Below are positions 1-12,261 of a stretch of 25,167 bases of DNA, in pieces. The notes beneath the pieces were generated by a model. The model ran no database searches. It was given only the letters and a program-made list of their open reading frames with translations, and was not told where the DNA came from. The DNA comes from a virus. The DNA is taken from positions 1 through 25,167 of the IMG/VR virus record IMGVR_UViG_3300025840_000224. The stretch is one strand, 5' to 3'. Position 1 is the stretch's first letter, and the number at the start of each line of letters is the position of its first letter. A program made the position numbers and the translations under genes.

Positions 1-1536
1 TTCAAGGTTCGCGCTAATAGGGTCAGCGTCTGAGGTTAAATCCGCAGTAAGTCGCCACTGATCTATTTCGGTAATCCCATTGGTGTGCGTGTAGGGCACC
101 CAATTAGTTCCGTTCCATTGCAATAGGTCGCCCGTAGATGGGGCAGCAGTTGTTGTATCTACGTCAGTTAAGTCATCAACACCCAAAGAGACAGTGCCGG
201 ACGGGTTTGTTTGTACCCACTGGTTAGACGAGCCATCGGTGTAGTAGACGTACAACTTCAAGTCGGTGCTGTGCCACCAAAGATCTCCCGAGGACGGGCT
301 GCTAGGAGCCGTATCTGAGACAGTGACGGACGCTCCGCCTGACCCTGAACCACCGCCGCCTGTCGGGTTGGCCTGAACCCACTGATCTGAATCGCCGTCG
401 TTGTAATAGATATAGGTCTTGAGCGCGTTGGGGTCGAACCACATATCCCCCGAGCTGGGGTTGCTCGGCGCAGTTTCTTGGATCGCCACAGATGTATTGG
501 AATCGCGGGAACCAGAGGGGTTAGCCTTGACCCACTGCGACGAAGATCCGTCGTTGTAGTAAACGTAAAGCCGCAGAGTGGTTGTGTCGTACCAAAGATC
601 ACCATCAGACGGGGAGCTTGGTGCTGTATCTGCGGTGGTTACAGACGCCCCGCCGCCACCGCCCGACTGTGCAACCCAATCGTAATCTGTGCCGTTCCAA
701 CTTAAAACTTCGTTTGTGGCGGCTGTACTGGTATTGAGGTGCGTATCTACACTGGCGTCGTTATAACTACCGCCCGATGGCGAGGCCGCGTCCCAGCGGC
801 TGTTTGCGTTGTCCCATGTAAGCACTTGACCGTCTGTTGGGGCCATAGTGTTTACATCAGACAAGTCCTCAATACTCTGACCTGAAATGCTTGTCAGATA
901 CCCCGATAAGTCAGGAGGTGTATAAGTAAACACCCCGGTGTTATTGGTATATGTAAGCGCCGCTGTGCCTGCGGTGTTGGTCGTAACAGAAATGTCAGTC
1001 AGCGCAATGCCGCCGCTCGCTGTAGCAGGCTCCCACTTACTGTTCGCATTGTCCCAAGTCAGAACCTGCCCATCAGTCGGCGCTGTCGTCGATGTATCTA
1101 CATCACTAAGATCATCAATTTGTGCAGCCCTGGGGATGATAATTTCCCCTGCCATCGCAGCATGAGCAGAACAGTTGTAATAAAGCTTAGACGGCGCGTC
1201 CTGCGGAACAACAAACTTAATCGTCCCGCTGGCAGTTCCGTTGTTGGTTACACCATCGGAGTAAGCGTTGCCCGTGCCGGTGCCAGATACCGTCTTGATG
1301 TAGAACGGATGGCCGGTGGCGTTTACTGCAAACTCGTAAGTCTTACCCCTGTGCAGGTAAAGCGTCGGGTTACTGTCGCTATCGGTGCCGAATCCGTTGA
1401 AGACATAAGCACTGGAAGCATTGTTGGTAACAGCGAAGTATCCGTCAGATGTGGCAACGTCCCACACGCCGAGTGTGGCGTTATAGATAAATCCGTTGAA
1501 AAGGTCGCCGCCTGATGGGTTGTCTGGGAAATTCAT
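1..1536 (-). CDS. Tail fibre protein with cupredoxin-like domain (3' end missing)
   Basis: The frame stays open from an ATG at 1536 to the window edge (512 codons, no stop), so the gene is C-terminally truncated by the window. Residues about 56-135 form a cupredoxin-like domain: NPTLYLHRGKTYEF, then GHPFYI, then VPQDAPSKLYYNCSAHAAMAG. H76, C122, H125 and M128 match type-1 copper ligands with amicyanin-like C-x2-H-x2-M spacing. Next come two DLSDV..PTDGQVLTWDNANS modules (about 143-168 and 225-248), a Gly-rich linker, and three 40-residue repeats around a DGDLWY/YVYYNDG core. A further DDLTDVDT module lies near the cut end. Such low-complexity linker modules and this fold are familiar in marine phage fibres. 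The upstream gene stops in a TAATG overlap with this start, so translation is probably coupled. Role as a virion fibre is inferred from composition and position; copper binding is untested. Confidence 0.82.
   Translation of the reverse strand, partial: MNFPDNPSGGDLFNGFIYNATLGVWDVATSDGYFAVTNNASSAYVFNGFGTDSDSNPTLYLHRGKTYEFAVNATGHPFYIKTVSGTGTGNAYSDGVTNNGTASGTIKFVVPQDAPSKLYYNCSAHAAMAGEIIIPRAAQIDDLSDVDTSTTAPTDGQVLTWDNANSKWEPATASGGIALTDISVTTNTAGTAALTYTNNTGVFTYTPPDLSGYLTSISGQSIEDLSDVNTMAPTDGQVLTWDNANSRWDAASPSGGSYNDASVDTHLNTSTAATNEVLSWNGTDYDWVAQSGGGGGASVTTADTAPSSPSDGDLWYDTTTLRLYVYYNDGSSSQWVKANPSGSRDSNTSVAIQETAPSNPSSGDMWFDPNALKTYIYYNDGDSDQWVQANPTGGGGSGSGGASVTVSDTAPSSPSSGDLWWHSTDLKLYVYYTDGSSNQWVQTNPSGTVSLGVDDLTDVDTTTAAPSTGDLLQWNGTNWVPYTHTNGITEIDQWRLTADLTSDADPISANLE
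196..630 (-). repeat. Three 40-residue coding repeats in the fibre gene
   Basis: Three in-frame 120-nt copies lie at 511-630, 358-477 and 196-315. Each starts at the D/E before TAPS and ends at NP(S/T)G. Shared features are TAPS(S/N)PS(S/D)GD, an aromatic pair, Y(V/I)YYxDG and QWVxxNP. Copy starts are 153 and 162 nt apart, with Gly/Ser linkers of different length between them. Shorter relatives occur in the next two fibre genes at about 2013-2126 and 2903-3010. Confidence 0.85.
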
Positions 1537-2309
1537 TAAACGTCTCCGACCTTGACGGCTGTTACTTCAGCAGAAATATCGCCCGTTCTATTAAATTGGT
1601 CATAACTAGTCCTGATCTGATAAGAGCTGCTAACAGACACAAGCCGCACCCAAGCGCCTTCTAAAGGCTCATCTGCCGAGTTATCACGAATTGTTGCCGT
1701 GGCTGCAAAACCCCCGAACCATAAGTCGTATGGGTTCTGCGTCACCCACCCATTTCCGTCATTAGTTTCCAGTCGTACTGAGGCGCTGGGGACACCACCA
1801 GACGCCGTGCTTTTTCCGATAGACATCCTCACATCAACAAGCCACGCTCCAGCCGAAAGGGTATAAGTTCCAAACGCAACACCATGAACAAAGCTGTTTT
1901 TATCAGAAGTTAGCCAGTCAGAAGACGTGCTCTCGTAACTTAAAGAGCTGCCCGCTGCAGCGGAGGTGAAGCCTACATCCTGCATTGCGGCTAAAGAGTG
2001 GACACCAGACTCTCCAGACGATGTTCCCACCGCAACCCAGTCACCCGACGCTGAGTCGTAAACATACGTCACCCCATTGCTCTCTGAGAACCAAGGCTGA
2101 CCGTCGATAGGGTTTGATGGCTTGGTAGACGAGGTTGTTATAAATGAATCAGCAACTAAATTAGCCCACGACCCGTTTTCTCTTATGTACTGCGTACCAT
2201 CTGAGGGCGCGTCGTCTAACTTGTCTGTATTCAAGTTAGAGAAGTTTGCGTCCATCTCAGTGGCGCTGAGAGGCGAGCCTTTACCTGATACTGTGACAAC
2301 CGTAGCCAT
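1536..2309 (-). CDS. Tail fibre/adhesin protein with jelly-roll-like C-terminus
   Basis: A 257-residue protein. Residues 1-50 carry a phage fibre N-terminal module (SGKGSPLSATEMDANFSNLNTDK, then DAPSDGTQY), nearly the same as in the upstream gene. Residues 62-99 are a shortened copy of the 40-residue fibre repeat (TKPSNPIDGQPWFSESNG, then TYVYDSASGDWV). The C-terminal half (about 125-257) has alternating hydrophobic beta-strand segments such as GTYTLSAGAWLVDVRMSIG. That pattern suggests a C1q/TNF-like jelly roll of the sort used as receptor-binding tips. The two ends overlap by one base with the flanking genes as TAATG, so the three fibre genes are probably translated in tandem. Fibre role is inferred from module content and location; no receptor is indicated. 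Confidence 0.75.
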   Translation of the reverse strand: MATVVTVSGKGSPLSATEMDANFSNLNTDKLDDAPSDGTQYIRENGSWANLVADSFITTSSTKPSNPIDGQPWFSESNGVTYVYDSASGDWVAVGTSSGESGVHSLAAMQDVGFTSAAAGSSLSYESTSSDWLTSDKNSFVHGVAFGTYTLSAGAWLVDVRMSIGKSTASGGVPSASVRLETNDGNGWVTQNPYDLWFGGFAATATIRDNSADEPLEGAWVRLVSVSSSYQIRTSYDQFNRTGDISAEVTAVKVGDV

Positions 2310-3196
2310 TAGGTTGCCCCTAGTCGCTGAAACAGCACATGGACATCTAACTTGTCACTTGAGGCAGCGTTTGAGTCTGATTTGGCTCTAAGCCTTATTT
2401 TATGTGTGCTAGTGCTAGTTACATCAAAAACAAAAGAAAGCGTGGCTGTTGAATTATGCTCCGCCGTGTTAGAAGAGCTAGTCTGATGTGATCTATCAGC
2501 AAAGCTATTTCCAGTGAGGTTCGAGTAGGTCGAGCCGTCTGTAGTTTTTTCTATGCTTCCCCCAAGAATTGCTGCAGTCCGATTTGAGGAGGAAGTGCCA
2601 TAAAAAGAAAAGTCAGCTCTAACAAGCCAATGACCAGTAGAAGGGAAGGTAAACACACCAGATGTCTGCGTCATTGCGCCGTTAATATTTGTCTGCCGCG
2701 CCCAACCTGAACTAACAACGGAGTTTGTGCTCGCGCCGAAGGTCAACGTTCCGCTTTCCCACTGCTCAATGACAGGCGTTTCGTTTATCCACTTGGACGC
2801 GCCGCTGTCATAAACGAGAATGTCTTTATCTTGGACAGACGTGATTGCTACGTCACTCATCTCAGACAAATTGCTGAAACCACCTAGCGAACCAGTCGGC
2901 GCACCAGTAGCCACCCACTGCGAAGATGTTCCATCGTCGTAATACACGTAAGTAACGCCATTACTTTCTGAATACCAAACGTCTCCATCAGATGGAGATG
3001 ACGGTGCTGTGCTAGACGTTGTGATCGTAGCCGCAGCAGCAGTAACCGCCGTCCACGCACCAGACTGACGGGCATAAGTGGTTCCGTCAGATGGAGCGTC
3101 CTCGATCTTGTCTGTATTCAGATTAGTGAAATTAGAGTCCACCTCTGTGTTAGTCAGAGGTGAACCCTTTCCACTACGAGTGACAATGGTTGCCAT
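2309..3196 (-). CDS. Tail fibre/adhesin protein, paralogue of the next gene
   Basis: A 295-residue protein. Its N-terminus (SGKGSPLTNTEVDSNFTNLNTDK) is a clear paralogue of the start of the following gene. Residues about 62-98 hold the shared fibre module (TAPSSPSDGDVWYSESNG, then YVYYDDGTSSQWV). A short SNLSEMSDV linker follows at about 108-116. The C-terminal part from about residue 145 has strands such as SGVFTFPSTGHWLVRADFSF and ends in DVHVLFQRL, consistent with a trimeric jelly-roll tip. The C-terminal domain differs from the paralogue's, as expected if receptor-binding tips were exchanged while the base was kept. An AGGA sequence 8 nt before the ATG serves as ribosome-binding site. Its stop overlaps the next ATG by one base. 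Confidence 0.77.
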   Translation of the reverse strand: MATIVTRSGKGSPLTNTEVDSNFTNLNTDKIEDAPSDGTTYARQSGAWTAVTAAAATITTSSTAPSSPSDGDVWYSESNGVTYVYYDDGTSSQWVATGAPTGSLGGFSNLSEMSDVAITSVQDKDILVYDSGASKWINETPVIEQWESGTLTFGASTNSVVSSGWARQTNINGAMTQTSGVFTFPSTGHWLVRADFSFYGTSSSNRTAAILGGSIEKTTDGSTYSNLTGNSFADRSHQTSSSNTAEHNSTATLSFVFDVTSTSTHKIRLRAKSDSNAASSDKLDVHVLFQRLGAT

Positions 3197-5890: not shown

Positions 5891-6288
5891 TTCTCGCGTG
5901 ACACTCTTTTGGTCTTTTCGAACGTCCTTAAACCTCCAAGCCCCAACATTCCGAGAAGCACTGTCAGCAAGCTGTCCATGTCAAACTCAGGAAGCGGGGG
6001 CGCTTCCACACCCGTGTACGCAATCACAAACGTAGCCAATGGCTGTAAAACGAAATGCCAGAATAAGGCGATTGAACAGCACCAGCCGGTTGCCGGACGC
6101 CAGCCCGCCACAAAGATCGATTTGTGCGTTGCTTCGGCCTTATTTATCTCAATTTGACCTTTCGCCAGTTCGTGAGCATGGCGTTCGGACATGGTGGCGA
6201 TCTCATGGGCCAAACGATTACGCTCATCTGCGTCAGGGATGAACTTGTCGAGAAGCCCCGTGACGGGGCCGATTAATGCTTCAAGCAT
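5887..6288 (-). CDS. Holin, 3TM/GTA-holin type
   Basis: A 133-residue protein resembling the 'holin of 3TMs, for gene-transfer release' family. It has an amphipathic N-terminus (LIGPVTGLLDKFIPDADE), a charged helix (about 21-55), the WRPATGW motif (63-69) leading into a membrane segment (about 67-91), and a second hydrophobic segment (about 104-122), then the basic tail RTFEKTKRVSREK. Holins of this kind form inner-membrane lesions that release the endolysin. It starts in a one-base TAATG overlap with the exported EF-hand-like protein and ends in an ATGA overlap with the 64-residue membrane protein. Confidence 0.8.
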   Translation of the reverse strand: MLEALIGPVTGLLDKFIPDADERNRLAHEIATMSERHAHELAKGQIEINKAEATHKSIFVAGWRPATGWCCSIALFWHFVLQPLATFVIAYTGVEAPPLPEFDMDSLLTVLLGMLGLGGLRTFEKTKRVSREK

Positions 6289-6668
6289 TACTCACCCCAA
6301 CCGTCATCATTTTCGTCGTATTTGCCGTCGTTGTTGGTGTCACACGCCCGCTGCCACGAAATCATGTCGAAAGTTAAACCTTCGTGCCATGGGATATAGG
6401 CTTTACACCATTCATGGGAGCCTATAGCCATGTCATCAGTACCATCTGGATCGGGGACATAATCACGCTTAGACCAAGGCTTTTGGACACGAAAAAACGT
6501 ATCCTTGTTCTTCATCAGTTGCCGCTTGAATAAAGCGCTATTTGGAGTGCTGATGTAAATCTCCTGATTAGTTTTCAGCGTGTATGTAGACCCGTCGTCA
6601 TAGTTAATAACGGTTTCCGCTGACGCGGCGCTTGCCGCGAGTAATGCTGCTAGTGCTGTTTTTTTCAT
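6288..6668 (-). CDS. Exported protein with EF-hand-like calcium loop, lysis region
   Basis: A 126-residue protein with a textbook Sec signal peptide (MKKTALAALLAASAASA, AxA cleavage after residue 17) and no lipobox Cys. The mature part has an aromatic, charged middle (FFRVQKPWSKRDYVPDPDG) and two cysteines (C88, C109) that could form a disulfide in the periplasm. The C-terminus carries an EF-hand/dockerin-like loop: D110, N112, D114, G115, D118 and D121. It would act in the periplasm. It is the first gene of the lysis block, with a strong GGGGAAGG ribosome-binding site, 10 nt after the giant ejection protein. Function is unknown; a lysis accessory or cell-envelope role fits the position. It lacks spanin features (no lipobox, no transmembrane anchor after cleavage). 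Confidence 0.75.
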   Translation of the reverse strand: MKKTALAALLAASAASAETVINYDDGSTYTLKTNQEIYISTPNSALFKRQLMKNKDTFFRVQKPWSKRDYVPDPDGTDDMAIGSHEWCKAYIPWHEGLTFDMISWQRACDTNNDGKYDENDDGWGE

Positions 6669-6678
6669 GACCTTCCCC

Positions 6679-9600
6679 TCATAGGACGTTGTAAACAGGT
6701 AACAAGCGATCTTTTAACGTGCGATCTACACGCCAACCGTTCTCTAACGCTTCTGTGATCGTTTCTGCAGTTGGACCAAGAATTGAAGTGGCCCCGCCAA
6801 TCGGGCCATCCCATTCATACTGTTGATGTGCCATTACTCCAAGTGACAGCGGGCCTAAGAAACCTGACCGGTCAATGGTCTCGAACAGGTACTCGTCCCA
6901 ATCCATGCGGTCGGTTCTGAAGTACCGCGCTTTCGGCTCGACACCGGGGAGCGCCCACGCTAGCCCTGTCTTCGCGTACTCGCGCAGTTCCATGCCCAAC
7001 ATGGCGAGCGGCATCGTTGCGACCGCTGCCAATGCGAACACACTCAGCGTCGCGCTAATCTGCGCCGCGTTGAGTTCGCCGGGGTTCTCTGCCATCCGCG
7101 ACTGCGCTTCTCGAACGATTCCGCCGCCGATGACTTTTGAATAAGCGTAGAAGTAAGACTTCAACTGCCAGACCAACGCCCACCGTGGATCAGATGCCCA
7201 GATCGGTCGCTCAGCAGCATTGGGTCGCAGGATCGAAGACTCAGTGAAACGCTGGATGGCCTGCTTCACCTTTTTACCTTCAGGGGTCGAGAACTTACGG
7301 CCCTCTTTGTTCCACTTGTTTACATCTTCGGCAGTCAGACCGAGCTCACGCAGGTAGCGCTCAGAACGGGGGTTATCAAATTCGTTCCGCGCATGGTGCG
7401 TGATAAATGAAGCACCCATGCCTGCTGCAAACTCACGGCTAAACCGCGTGAACTGATCCAGCATGATGACCCTAAAATACGCGTCCGACAGCTTTCGAAC
7501 TTTCGGGTCCATGTAATCCTGCTCGGCCTGAGTGACCCAGCCATTAGCGACGGTCTCGTTCGTTACAACCCCAACATCCCTTGCAAACTGTCTTCGCTCT
7601 TCAGGATCACGCAAGCCGTCTTTGATCTGTTTCATCGCCATACCGAAGGTATGAAGAGAAAACTCTTTTGAGTTGATTACCGGACCCGCAAGGTCGGTGA
7701 GTGACGCAATAGTGGCAAAAGGCAGAATCGTGACGAACTGCAGAAACTGACCGTAGCTGTTGAGCTTTCGCCATAGCGGGCTGATCGGACTGGACTGATA
7801 GCCCATGTAAGCATTCAGCACCTCTAGCGTTGCCGCTCTATCCTCTTCAGAAAGTTTCGACAGCTCTTCTTTCAGCGCGAGGCCGTTGTTAGTTGCTTTG
7901 TTGAACTCAACACGCTTTGCAACGTGGCGCAAATAGGACACCAACGCTTCCTCTGGTTCTTGCAGGAAGCCCGCGTCTTGTAGCGTTTTACGGTCGATAC
8001 CGCGCGTGAGCATAATGTCCTGCTCAACGCCTGCCGCTGGGTTAGTAGGGTCATAATCAACCGGCTTGTCGTCGCGCATCGCTTGGCTGTACTGTCGCAA
8101 CCGATAGATAGCCGCCTCTGCACGGGCTGGTGAGATGCCTTGCTGCTCAGCAAGAATCAAGTTCTTGAACTCTTCCGTCCGGTTTTCAATTTCCAGCATG
8201 TTCAGCAAGACCGGGAAGTAATCTTTCTGGAAACCGATGTCTGTATTCGACGGCTGGATATAGTCGGTATACACGTCTTGTAAAAACTGTCTCACTTGCT
8301 GAGCCTTGGGAGACAGCGTCTCTGTAGCGTCAGACGACGCGGCCTCACGCAACGCATCCTTTACCTCTGGGTCATCTAAACTTCCGACCGTATCTTCGAA
8401 TGTGTTCTGAAACTCTGCCACTTTCAACGCCGATGCCCGCAACATGCCTAAATTACCGCCAGACCCATCTTCTTGAGAGCGACGGTAAAACATGTCCGCG
8501 ACTCGGTTTCCTGCATGCATTCGCAGCACGCCGTCTGCGGTTGCAACAAACTTCATCAAAGGTCGAGACGCACGGCTAATGCTGCGTTCCCAGTGGCGCG
8601 CCAACGCTTCGCCGCCCTCTTTGACGACAGCCTCTTTAACCGCATGCGGCATGGCTTTTTCGGTAAAGGTAAGCGGTGGCTCTGAGGGTGCTGGACCTGC
8701 ATCTTCCTGAACTTGCCCAGTTATTTGGGTAGGCGCTGGCCTGCCCCCGTACTGATACTTAACCTGCCCTCGCACTACTTCATTTACGAACGCGCTTTGT
8801 TTCTTAGAAGCCACCACGCCTTCGATGTACTGTTCAAACTCGGGTGATTTTGGTCCTTTACGTGCTCGGAATCCCTGCTTCATGGCTCGCCACATTTTTT
8901 TGAGCTTTTCTACAAGCTCTTTGAAATGCTTATCAACCATATTTTTGGCGGCTTTATTTGCGTACCGCTTAGTCGCCCAGCGAGACAGCTGATCTGCGTA
9001 CCACTCTTCAAAGCCTTTCTCGAAGCCGTAGAGTTCGACATACCGATCATGCTTGGGATGTCGTTTGTAAGACTCAACAAGCCGTGGTCGGAGTGCGTCG
9101 TTCTCTAACGCGGCCTGTTGCTCCTGCTGATACACCGCGTGTCCGATTTCATGGGCAGCTGTCATAGCATCACTAAGAGCGTTGCCAGTCGGGTTAATAA
9201 CAGCGATATTTACTTTGCCGTCGTAACTGCCGCCAATTTCAAGATTGTCTAGCTGCCGCTGTATCATTCGCTGCACTGCAACAAGCTCGACTTCGGAAAA
9301 CAACCGAGAAAGCTGCGCGTCCGACAGCTGCGTCAGTCGCTCCAGATTAAAAATACGCGGGGGGTTTACGAGCTTAACGGCGTCGAGCGCATCGTTGATT
9401 AGGCTTCGCACAAGAGGGTCGTCAAAGCCCTGTGGATCTTCTCGCGGTGGGGGCACAGACACAGGGTCCGCTGCTGTCTCTCCTGTACCAGTAGAAGGTG
9501 CGGAGCCAGTGCGTCGATCAGGATCGATATCGTCGCGGGGGTCGCCAGCAAAAACTTCTGTCTCTGTCCTTCCCTCGGCAGCTTGTTCTATCGGCACTTG

Positions 9601-12261
9601 CCTAAAGGTACGTTGTCCCTCAACGTAGTCAGGGTCACCTGGGACTACTTCCTCGCTACGTGTCTCGCGGGGCATTTGATACGGCACGATCTGCCGCAGT
9701 GCGGGGTCGTTGTAGGTCTGACGCAACTGACGTTTATTTTCAGCCTTCTGATCTTCGGTAAGGAACCGCTGTTTGCCGGGATCTTTCACACCGTTAAACA
9801 GGTCCGCGAGACCAACCGTCTGCCCTGCGATCCTAGCGGCGGGTACATTTAACCGCTCGTCCACCCGACCACTTAACACCTCATTTATAGGCTGACCGAG
9901 CACCTCAACCTGATACCCCTCAAGAAGTAGGTCACCCAGCACTTCTGACAGGCCTTGCTGTGCGGACTGTATCGGCTCTGCGCCGACAAAGGGCTTACCT
10001 TCTCTGTTCTCTACCAACCTCTGCCCAGAGAAAGTCAGGTCTGCCAGATTGATGCGATGGGTCTTACCGTCAGGCGCGATTAAAACAACGCCAGACTGAC
10101 GCGAGAACTTGCCCTGCTTCGCCTTAGTAATAGCCCGGCTAATAAACTCAGGCAGCGTAAGACGCAGCTCTTTGCCGCCAGCTTGGAACCGATAAAGCTT
10201 GTCAAAATCTGTCCGCACAACCTCAAACTGCCCGTCTTGGTTCTTGGTGATCTCAACGATTGAGTTCGGGTTATTTCGGGACTCTTGGACCGCGCGATTT
10301 AACGTAGACTCACTGACGCCCGCAAACTCTGGCGAATTGAAGTCTGTTTCACCAAACGCCGCTACATAATCTGCTCTAGCCTGTTCAGTGTTGTCGAACG
10401 TTCGCGCAGGATCAGTCTTAGGCGCATAAGTTTCGACTATGGTGCGCTCACCTTCCTGTTCAGTCATCGCGAGCTCTGACTTCAAGGCAGACAACTCTTC
10501 AAACTCAGAGCCAAATGTAGGTGTTTCTGTTTGATCGGGAGCGTCGAAAGAGTCAGGGTCGTCATCGACAGGCTCTACAGTCGGTCCTCGCTCTCCATTA
10601 AACCGCTTGGCGCGCTCTTCGAGTGCTTGTTCGGCATCGACGCGCTGCACGCTGCCGCCCTCTGGCATCAAGCCGCGCGCTGCCTCCATAGCCGCGTCTA
10701 TGGTGTCCTCGCTGGCTAGCTCCTCAGAGACGACGTTACCGTCTGCATCTAGCGCCCGCGCTACTAACAACGATTCACCGCTTCCAAAACTCTGGGGTTT
10801 TACGTTGCTATACCCAAGCGCGGCACCGACCGCCTCATCTGAAGCTCCAGACGCTACTACCTCGTCGACTATTTTCCGACTAGTACTGACGATTGTCCCA
10901 CGACCGGGTATGAAAGCTGCAAATGCCAGCTGACCATCTACAGTAATCTCAGTGGATTTGTTGGGGCGAGCGCTGTACTGAGCTTCATCACCAGATACCC
11001 ATACCGCTTGCTTCTTACTGGTTGGGTTCACCATTGCGCTCAGCTGAGCATTAATGTCCGCCGCCGCTTCGGGCTGAGTCTGTCCCTCTGGTACGTCGCC
11101 CACCGTCTCTTCAGCAATCGCCTCTTCAGTGCGTTGCGTCTGAGCGTCATCCATATAACGGCGGGCTTTATCAAATATTGTCGCTACCTGTTCCGTAGCA
11201 CCTTTCACCGGCTGCGACAGAGATTCACCAACAGCTTGCGCGATCTCATTACGATTTCCAACTACAGAACCAGCCGCTCCTGTAGTACCACCTAACGCTG
11301 TTCCTCCAATAAGTGATGTGAACGCGGTTTCTAATCTTCGTAAATTTGCGTCTTCCTGTGTGTAGGTTTCGTCGAGGTCAAATCGATTTTGTATGGCGAT
11401 CTCTTCTTGGGCCATTTCAGAGGCTGTTTGAATGACGCCCCCTTTTCCGGCACTACGACTAATATCTGCTGCTAACTGACCATAAATACTGTCTGCTTTT
11501 ACAGTCCGTCGCGCTGCAACATCGCCCAACAATTTTAGGAAAGCGACATCCCCCCCAACACCTAATGCGGCTTGCGGGACCGCAACGCCCGCTGCTCGCA
11601 AAGCTTGACCACGGTCCAACTCCTGACCGGAATCTAACGCTTCGGACAAATTCGACCCTGCTAGTGGCACGAACTCAGATCCGAAAGCACCGGTAATAGC
11701 CCCGCGTTTGAATGTAGTGTAGGCAGCTTGCGCTAGTTTTTGCTCATCGGGCGTGGCTGTTTTATTGGCTGTTTTACGAAGGGCATCTTTGACAATTTTC
11801 TCGGCGGCTTTTTTCGTGACAGTCGAGAAAGCAGCTTTGCCTGCCACCGCCGTTACTCCGCCTATAACACCGCCCGCAATAGAAGTTAAGGCATACGGAA
11901 GAAGCTGTGCAGGTGCTTTGGTTAGTTGAGTTGCAAATCCTTCCCAAGTAGGCGCGTCTAAAAACTCTTCGAAAGGCTGTATCCCCTCTGAAGCATTTGC
12001 CGCACGGACTTCGTCGTAACGAGCCTGCCGAATATTTTCAACTGCAGCCTCGTCGTCGCCTATGAGTGTATTACCCAATGCTTTAAAGTATTCGAGATCA
12101 GCCTCAAAACCCGCCGTAGAGGCTTTGACTTGCGCGTCAAATACTCCCGGTAACGGTAAAGCTGCGCGCGGTGCATTGCTTACACCTTGCGGATCTATAG
12201 GCTCCTGATTATCCGCAGGAAAATCAGCCTCTAGAAACTGACGCAGCGGATCGACGGCCAC
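6679..12261 (-). CDS. Giant internal virion/ejection protein with HExxH metallopeptidase
   Basis: An 1860-residue protein, the largest in the window. It starts with GTG at 12261, directly after the upstream stop and 7 nt from GAGGG. The N-terminal third has Gly/Ala-rich hydrophobic stretches (around residues 105-130 and 310-335). The centre holds AAHEIGHAVYQ, with H1037, E1038 and H1041 as HExxH, and GFEEWYADQ with E1085/E1086 as candidate third ligand; this is a gluzincin-like zinc peptidase signature. The C-terminal portion (about 1200-1860) resembles the large conserved C-terminal domains of phage polyvalent proteins (possibly LPD38-like), with a hydrophobic segment near 1738-1760. Position last in a T7 gp13-16-like series suggests a core protein injected with the DNA. 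I see no lytic transglycosylase motif. Tape measure is unlikely, since no tail-tube genes accompany it. Confidence 0.8.
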   Translation of the reverse strand: MAVDPLRQFLEADFPADNQEPIDPQGVSNAPRAALPLPGVFDAQVKASTAGFEADLEYFKALGNTLIGDDEAAVENIRQARYDEVRAANASEGIQPFEEFLDAPTWEGFATQLTKAPAQLLPYALTSIAGGVIGGVTAVAGKAAFSTVTKKAAEKIVKDALRKTANKTATPDEQKLAQAAYTTFKRGAITGAFGSEFVPLAGSNLSEALDSGQELDRGQALRAAGVAVPQAALGVGGDVAFLKLLGDVAARRTVKADSIYGQLAADISRSAGKGGVIQTASEMAQEEIAIQNRFDLDETYTQEDANLRRLETAFTSLIGGTALGGTTGAAGSVVGNRNEIAQAVGESLSQPVKGATEQVATIFDKARRYMDDAQTQRTEEAIAEETVGDVPEGQTQPEAAADINAQLSAMVNPTSKKQAVWVSGDEAQYSARPNKSTEITVDGQLAFAAFIPGRGTIVSTSRKIVDEVVASGASDEAVGAALGYSNVKPQSFGSGESLLVARALDADGNVVSEELASEDTIDAAMEAARGLMPEGGSVQRVDAEQALEERAKRFNGERGPTVEPVDDDPDSFDAPDQTETPTFGSEFEELSALKSELAMTEQEGERTIVETYAPKTDPARTFDNTEQARADYVAAFGETDFNSPEFAGVSESTLNRAVQESRNNPNSIVEITKNQDGQFEVVRTDFDKLYRFQAGGKELRLTLPEFISRAITKAKQGKFSRQSGVVLIAPDGKTHRINLADLTFSGQRLVENREGKPFVGAEPIQSAQQGLSEVLGDLLLEGYQVEVLGQPINEVLSGRVDERLNVPAARIAGQTVGLADLFNGVKDPGKQRFLTEDQKAENKRQLRQTYNDPALRQIVPYQMPRETRSEEVVPGDPDYVEGQRTFRQVPIEQAAEGRTETEVFAGDPRDDIDPDRRTGSAPSTGTGETAADPVSVPPPREDPQGFDDPLVRSLINDALDAVKLVNPPRIFNLERLTQLSDAQLSRLFSEVELVAVQRMIQRQLDNLEIGGSYDGKVNIAVINPTGNALSDAMTAAHEIGHAVYQQEQQAALENDALRPRLVESYKRHPKHDRYVELYGFEKGFEEWYADQLSRWATKRYANKAAKNMVDKHFKELVEKLKKMWRAMKQGFRARKGPKSPEFEQYIEGVVASKKQSAFVNEVVRGQVKYQYGGRPAPTQITGQVQEDAGPAPSEPPLTFTEKAMPHAVKEAVVKEGGEALARHWERSISRASRPLMKFVATADGVLRMHAGNRVADMFYRRSQEDGSGGNLGMLRASALKVAEFQNTFEDTVGSLDDPEVKDALREAASSDATETLSPKAQQVRQFLQDVYTDYIQPSNTDIGFQKDYFPVLLNMLEIENRTEEFKNLILAEQQGISPARAEAAIYRLRQYSQAMRDDKPVDYDPTNPAAGVEQDIMLTRGIDRKTLQDAGFLQEPEEALVSYLRHVAKRVEFNKATNNGLALKEELSKLSEEDRAATLEVLNAYMGYQSSPISPLWRKLNSYGQFLQFVTILPFATIASLTDLAGPVINSKEFSLHTFGMAMKQIKDGLRDPEERRQFARDVGVVTNETVANGWVTQAEQDYMDPKVRKLSDAYFRVIMLDQFTRFSREFAAGMGASFITHHARNEFDNPRSERYLRELGLTAEDVNKWNKEGRKFSTPEGKKVKQAIQRFTESSILRPNAAERPIWASDPRWALVWQLKSYFYAYSKVIGGGIVREAQSRMAENPGELNAAQISATLSVFALAAVATMPLAMLGMELREYAKTGLAWALPGVEPKARYFRTDRMDWDEYLFETIDRSGFLGPLSLGVMAHQQYEWDGPIGGATSILGPTAETITEALENGWRVDRTLKDRLLPVYNVL

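Follow-up and report, generated by a model that had tools for sequence, protein, structure and literature searches.

A predicted cupredoxin fold and a jointly conserved type-1-like ligand set in phage tail fibres and connectors

Introduction

Does a phage tail fibre carry a type-1 copper site and, if so, what would such a site do on a virion? The question is raised by one end of a 25,167-bp IMG/VR virus fragment (the window, that is, the whole stretch of DNA analysed here). The original prediction, made from the letters of this DNA, described a cupredoxin-like domain in a tail fibre that keeps the complete His, Cys, His and Met ligand set with amicyanin spacing, and proposed that bound copper might serve as a structural rivet or let the fibre sense, or attach to, a metal-rich surface receptor or a redox protein. 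It suggested structure prediction as a check, and named free variation of the four ligands in homologues that keep the fold as grounds for rejection.

In the literature that was covered (subscription journals and preprints lay outside it), no paper was found that connects cupredoxins with phage tails or virions. As far as this literature shows, the fold and the ligand set are already known, and what is new is their setting in virion fibres and connectors, a His-Pro signature and the uncharted family to which the domain belongs. We assembled 394 loci from IMG/VR, GTDB genomes and isolate phages, plus PF00127 controls, resulting in 281 unique domain copies.

Results

The fibre ORF and its genome surroundings

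Read on the minus strand, the window contains terminase genes, a P22-like portal, a Phage_capsid_3 coat protein and virion proteins, together with a run of tail and fibre genes. Since the closest isolates of the portal are KPP25/phiR18-like Pseudomonas phages (~41% identity), the source of the window looks like a podovirus of an uncultured lineage. The fibre ORF and its parts are as follows.

1..1536, minus strand: tail-fibre ORF; ATG at 1534-1536, 512 aa visible, exits the contig end
1432..1536, minus strand: N-terminal segment, residues 1-35 (MNFPDNPSGGDLFNGFIYNATLGVWDV...), common to relatives L001-L006 and L018
1135..1431, minus strand: cupredoxin-like domain, residues 36-134 (AF2, Foldseek, hhalign)
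1309..1311, minus strand: H76, first His ligand position (GHPF); H in 231/281 unique copies
1306..1308, minus strand: P77, after the first His, where Asn is usual; P in 227/230 site-bearing copies
1171..1173, minus strand: C122, Cys ligand position; sole Cys in the 512 visible residues
1162..1164, minus strand: H125, second His ligand position
1153..1155, minus strand: M128, axial Met position
1..1131, minus strand: stalk-like fibre repeats, residues 136-512 (DLSDV...PTDGQVLTWDN; APSSPSDGDLWYD...QWV), matching PHROG tail-fibre families
1536..3196, minus strand: two more fibre/whisker-like ORFs adjoining the fibre ORF (1536-2309 and 2309-3196)

A 61-kb relative (L001) carries the same 512 residues, identical throughout, in a full protein of 640 aa. 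Both stretches quoted in the original prediction, H76 within GHPF and C122-x2-H125-x2-M128 within LYYNCSAHAAMAG, are exact. The location that it gave was also right, although its coordinates, 1132-1371, take in residues 56-135 only, whereas the whole domain comprises residues 36-134 (1135-1431).

Two other minus-strand ORFs of the window have features of their own. A 1860-aa virion-type protein (6679-12261) contains a HEIGH zinc-metalloprotease motif (...AAHEIGHAVYQQ...), with weak M78/IrrE-like matches and, further along, PHROG virion structural matches; it is possibly a protease within an internal or ejected virion protein. A 126-aa ORF (6288-6668) has a signal-like N-terminus and a DTNNDGKYDENDDG stretch resembling a calcium-binding loop.

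Predicted structure and match to cupredoxins

The AF2 model of the domain, built with 29 homologues (pLDDT 92.7, pTM 0.84), is all beta, with eight strands arranged in a beta-sandwich. When the model was compared with the PDB by Foldseek, the top match was the cupredoxin domain of nitrite reductase 2dv6 (E 2.7e-4), and further matches were mostly plastocyanin, amicyanin, pseudoazurin with an amicyanin loop, and multicopper oxidases. An azurin with an engineered CAAHAAM loop (3fs9/3fsa) was also among them, the loop of the fibre domain being CSAHAAM. TM-scores to solved cupredoxins were moderate at ~0.5 (TMq 0.4-0.58), and some Ig-like domains appeared among the Foldseek matches. Structure prediction, as suggested at the outset, thus returned a confident cupredoxin-like fold with matches to copper proteins. 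The Greek-key beta-sandwich of seven or eight strands that characterizes the cupredoxin superfamily was found in the predicted models of both site-bearing and site-less domains. Site-less homologues were modelled with a pLDDT of 92.3 and had AcoP, rusticyanin and plastocyanin as best matches; because these copies also match cupredoxins by predicted fold, the fold call is independent of the copper motif.

In the model (domain numbering), the first His lies two residues ahead of strand 44-47, Cys closes strand 83-88 and Met stands just before strand 95-99, a predicted placement consistent with a cupredoxin site. The order of a type-1 site, His/Cys/His/Met with Cys-His-Met in the last loop, is found in the sequence and in the predicted strands.

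Profile-profile alignment with seven cupredoxins by hhalign gave a probability of 95% and a score of 47.6 (the maximum of 200 column shuffles was 20.5) and put H76, C122, H125 and M128 all on the canonical amicyanin/plastocyanin ligands, which bears out the claim of a complete ligand set. The amicyanin spacing C-x2-H-x2-M is likewise as predicted (C-TPH-PFM in 1aac). With the four ligands masked, the score fell to 19.6, at the noise edge; most of the hhalign sequence signal lies in the ligand residues. Sequence-only HMMER alignments set H76 two residues before the canonical His, whereas profile-profile alignment puts His on His, and masking H76 shifts the hhalign gap. As its placement is not robust, the equivalence of H76 to the canonical His rests on conservation and fold.

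Sequence profile searches found copper proteins weakly, with the Copper-bind, amicyanin, halocyanin and plastocyanin models below their cut-offs, and no Pfam model scored above its cut-off for the domain. For PF00127 (Copper-bind), the window domain had no match, other members reached 16.4-18.8 bits against a cut-off of 21.2, and 10/29 alignment members matched weakly (best E 0.004). Acquisition of a host plastocyanin as a metabolic gene was ruled out, the domain being fused inside fibre proteins and not close to plastocyanin.

Six phage members of the alignment have a match below cut-off (best E 0.001) to PF25489, a plant At5g54830-like domain, which is a hint that the domain family also has a eukaryotic branch. 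Structural matches in BFVD include A0A481Z6J5 and A0A481YWX9, and belong to 'beta-sandwich' proteins of ~124-333 aa from metagenomic giant viruses labelled Pithovirus or Marseillevirus.

Conservation and loss of the ligands as a set

All four ligands (HCHM) are present in 230 of the 281 unique phage and bacterial copies, and the other 51 are site-less. The 230:51 ratio is not a natural frequency, since several searches used seeds overlapping the ligands and most of the site-less copies were retrieved with a site-less domain as the seed; a scan with a pattern avoiding all ligands gave HCHM in 59/60 cases. Not one of the 281 copies lacks exactly one of H76, C122 and H125, whereas ~101 such copies would be expected under independent loss, and zero was reached in 0/5000 shuffles. 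The absence of single losses persists at 90% (0 versus 69.7 expected) and 70% non-redundancy (0 versus 28.6 expected), with the proviso that kinship inflates these statistics because most site-less copies form one clade. In the 29-sequence alignment, the ligands are four of only eight invariant columns. The four residues therefore do not vary freely while the fold is kept, the outcome named in advance as grounds for rejection; they are kept or lost in concert, and selection on a putative metal site is the simplest reading of this pattern.

Two other explanations of the residues were ruled out: a chance motif, by the joint behaviour of the ligands and their share of the invariant columns, and a disulfide role for C122, by the single Cys found per domain in 219/230 site-bearing copies.

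The tree, which was built without the ligand columns and has few columns and many open forks, implies at least four changes of site state, at least two of them forced by supported branches. In site-less copies the remaining core positions stay conserved, and notable relaxation is seen only at P77 (0.98 to 0.59) and Y44 (0.92 to 0.42), which suggests that both belong to the site. Met is kept in 79% of these copies and would thus have at least a packing role.

The site-less phage clade on viral contigs (L225-L285) carries L/F/Y, N/S/A and Q/E as substitutes and keeps 85-100% at most other conserved core columns, forming a natural control set of apo type.

The His-Pro signature

In type-1 sites, the usual Asn after the first His gives a backbone hydrogen bond to the Cys sulphur. 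The domain family has Pro at this place in nearly all site-bearing copies (227/230). Asn is not universal in this position, as 2dv6 has His-Asp and 9cck His-Thr. Because Pro cannot donate the backbone hydrogen bond, the predicted copper site is expected to be atypical, perhaps greener or of lower potential.

Position and distribution of the domain

Similar domains had been said to recur in marine phage fibres, and we found matches in 359 phage-collection records, nearly all of them from cyanophages. Relatives of the window fibre keep the domain constant at the N-terminus and exchange the C-terminal tip. The domains of L001 and L002 are 100% identical while their C-termini are unrelated, and the C-terminus differs again in most other relatives. 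The L001 and L002 fibre ORFs, with the same N-terminal parts and unrelated tips, are an instance of fibre tip exchange between close relatives. In cyanomyoviruses, gp9/gp10-like wedge connectors have the domain at their C-terminus and proximal fibres have it near their N-terminus; carriers of both kinds were found in isolate cyanophages. Across 139 complete single-domain viral ORFs, it is C-terminal in 74, N-terminal in 23 and internal in 42. In phage S-SCSM1, whose virion proteome is known from mass spectrometry (PMC9602691), the record of the protein carrying the domain bears the label virion protein.

The bacterial copies are largely from Bacteroidota and Myxococcota and belong to exported proteins, either small stand-alone lipoprotein-like forms (about 140-180 aa) or larger proteins with the domain at the C-terminus. 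In the bacterial group L162-L208, all 48 unique copies are HCHM, with at most 62% identity over the domain, and no Pfam model passes its cut-off for the members tested. Bacteroidota proteins of this group have the domain C-terminal to repeats. Bacterial and phage copies intermingle on the tree, which suggests exchange between phages and bacteria. Four cellular loci inspected for a functional clue had unrelated housekeeping-type neighbours and were uninformative.

Discussion

A putative copper-stabilised module and its alternatives

On balance, residues 36-134 probably form a cupredoxin-fold module with a complete type-1-like site. The module lies in that part of a podovirus-like fibre which stays constant and is probably close to the virion, and there it would act as a copper-stabilised structural junction. 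Binding of a metal, its identity as copper, the orientation of the N-terminus towards the virion and the structural role are all inferred, the last from position and analogy. Most likely, a single copper ion would be acquired once the cell has lysed, or wherever copper is accessible, and the domain would fold around it. This ion would pin the loop of the first His to the Cys-His-Met loop, rigidifying that end of the sandwich, and the rigid, robust module may then form the junction between virion and stalk; as a movable copper-stabilised beta-module, it could serve at joints of the tail apparatus. Against this reading count the assembly of virions in a cytoplasm with little free copper, the site-less clade, which shows that the domain can serve without metal, the moderate TM-scores, the fall of the ligand-masked similarity to the noise edge, and the Pro after the first His. 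A wider proposal, which is possible but doubtful, is that aquatic phages have widespread true virion-borne blue (or green) copper proteins, with copper loaded on the particle and mattering for infection or for marine copper speciation.

The four ligands could also hold a physiological metal other than copper, such as zinc, or Cu(I) only, in a redox-inactive site. The metal cannot be read from the sequence, sites of the type-1 kind accept other metals in vitro, and His-Pro departs from canonical sites; however, His/Cys/His/Met with C-x2-H-x2-M is characteristic of copper when the fold is that of a cupredoxin, and we consider a different metal state unlikely. Somewhat less credible is a role in host recognition, in which a host protein for copper uptake or redox reactions would be the docking target of fibre-bound copper or of the cupredoxin surface, as the Trojan Horse hypothesis proposes for iron. 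Such a role has a precedent in the iron sites of phage fibres and the accompanying metal-receptor hypothesis (PMC11705849), and mimicry is conceivable because the related bacterial domains are on surface or exported proteins. Nevertheless, sensing of or attachment to a metal-rich receptor, as proposed for this fibre, found no support: the domain of the window phage sits in the constant N-terminal part while tips are swapped between relatives with identical domains, and its variable place in the 139 viral ORFs is not what a fixed receptor role would predict. Receptor sensing is disfavoured because of this position, which, together with the recurrence of the domain in cyanophage connectors, proximal fibres and bacterial lipoproteins, favours a copper-stabilised virion module instead.

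That no metal is bound at all, and that the four residues persist from a cellular cupredoxin because packing or folding needs them, appears improbable. The site-less copies do retain the fold, and most of them retain Met; yet H, C and H go together and never singly, P77 relaxes upon loss of the site, and packing explains poorly why a free Cys and two His are kept while almost all other columns differ. Type-1 copper proteins are electron carriers, and on this ground the site might be imagined to serve electron transfer or redox protection on the virion. We regard this as very improbable, as neither the fibre nor the neighbouring genes examined revealed a redox partner or partner domain, and the cellular loci inspected lie among unrelated housekeeping-type genes.

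Implications

If copper is confirmed in the proposed structural module, abundant phages would have type-1 copper sites in their tail apparatus, and a class of metal proteins best known from electron transfer would serve in a virus particle. Such sites would be to copper what iron-bearing fibres are to iron, and might have a bearing on marine copper. The site-bearing and site-less clades provide a natural pair for comparing what copper adds. In addition, an identity is given to a domain of many cyanophage structural proteins that are annotated but functionally blank.

Comparison with known systems

Amicyanin, plastocyanin and pseudoazurin (PF00127) share with the fibre domain the fold class, the His...Cys-x2-His-x2-Met order with the spacing of amicyanin, and Met-x-Gly after the loop. 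They have His-Asn where the fibre domain has His-Pro, and the latter scores below the PF00127 cut-off, is fused into virion fibres and has a predicted copper site. The engineered loop of azurin 3fs9/3fsa, CAAHAAM, equals the natural CSAHAAM in length and nearly in letters, but it was placed in an azurin core with a longer native loop, and that protein is an electron carrier. The bacterial proteins L162-L208 share both the domain and HCHM with the phage copies; they differ in being cellular exported proteins, and are also uncharacterised.

By sequence, the same domain occurs in PHROG 677/9158 (cyanophage baseplate wedge tail fibre connector and others), with an E-value of 3e-32 for the C-terminal end of phrog_677. 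This match spans positions 307-409 of 412 only, and not the whole profile, and the rest of the window fibre matches tail-fibre repeat families outside that stretch. The PHROG annotation covers the whole connector and says nothing on copper, whereas the window domain is N-terminal in a podovirus-like fibre. Finally, the iron-binding HxH tail fibres (T4 gp37 and alterophage R22Y) of the Trojan Horse hypothesis resemble the putative site in that a metal is held in a phage fibre (PMC11705849). They hold octahedral iron in trimeric needles, with another fold and other ligands, whereas the fibre domain would hold its metal in a type-1-like site within a single chain.
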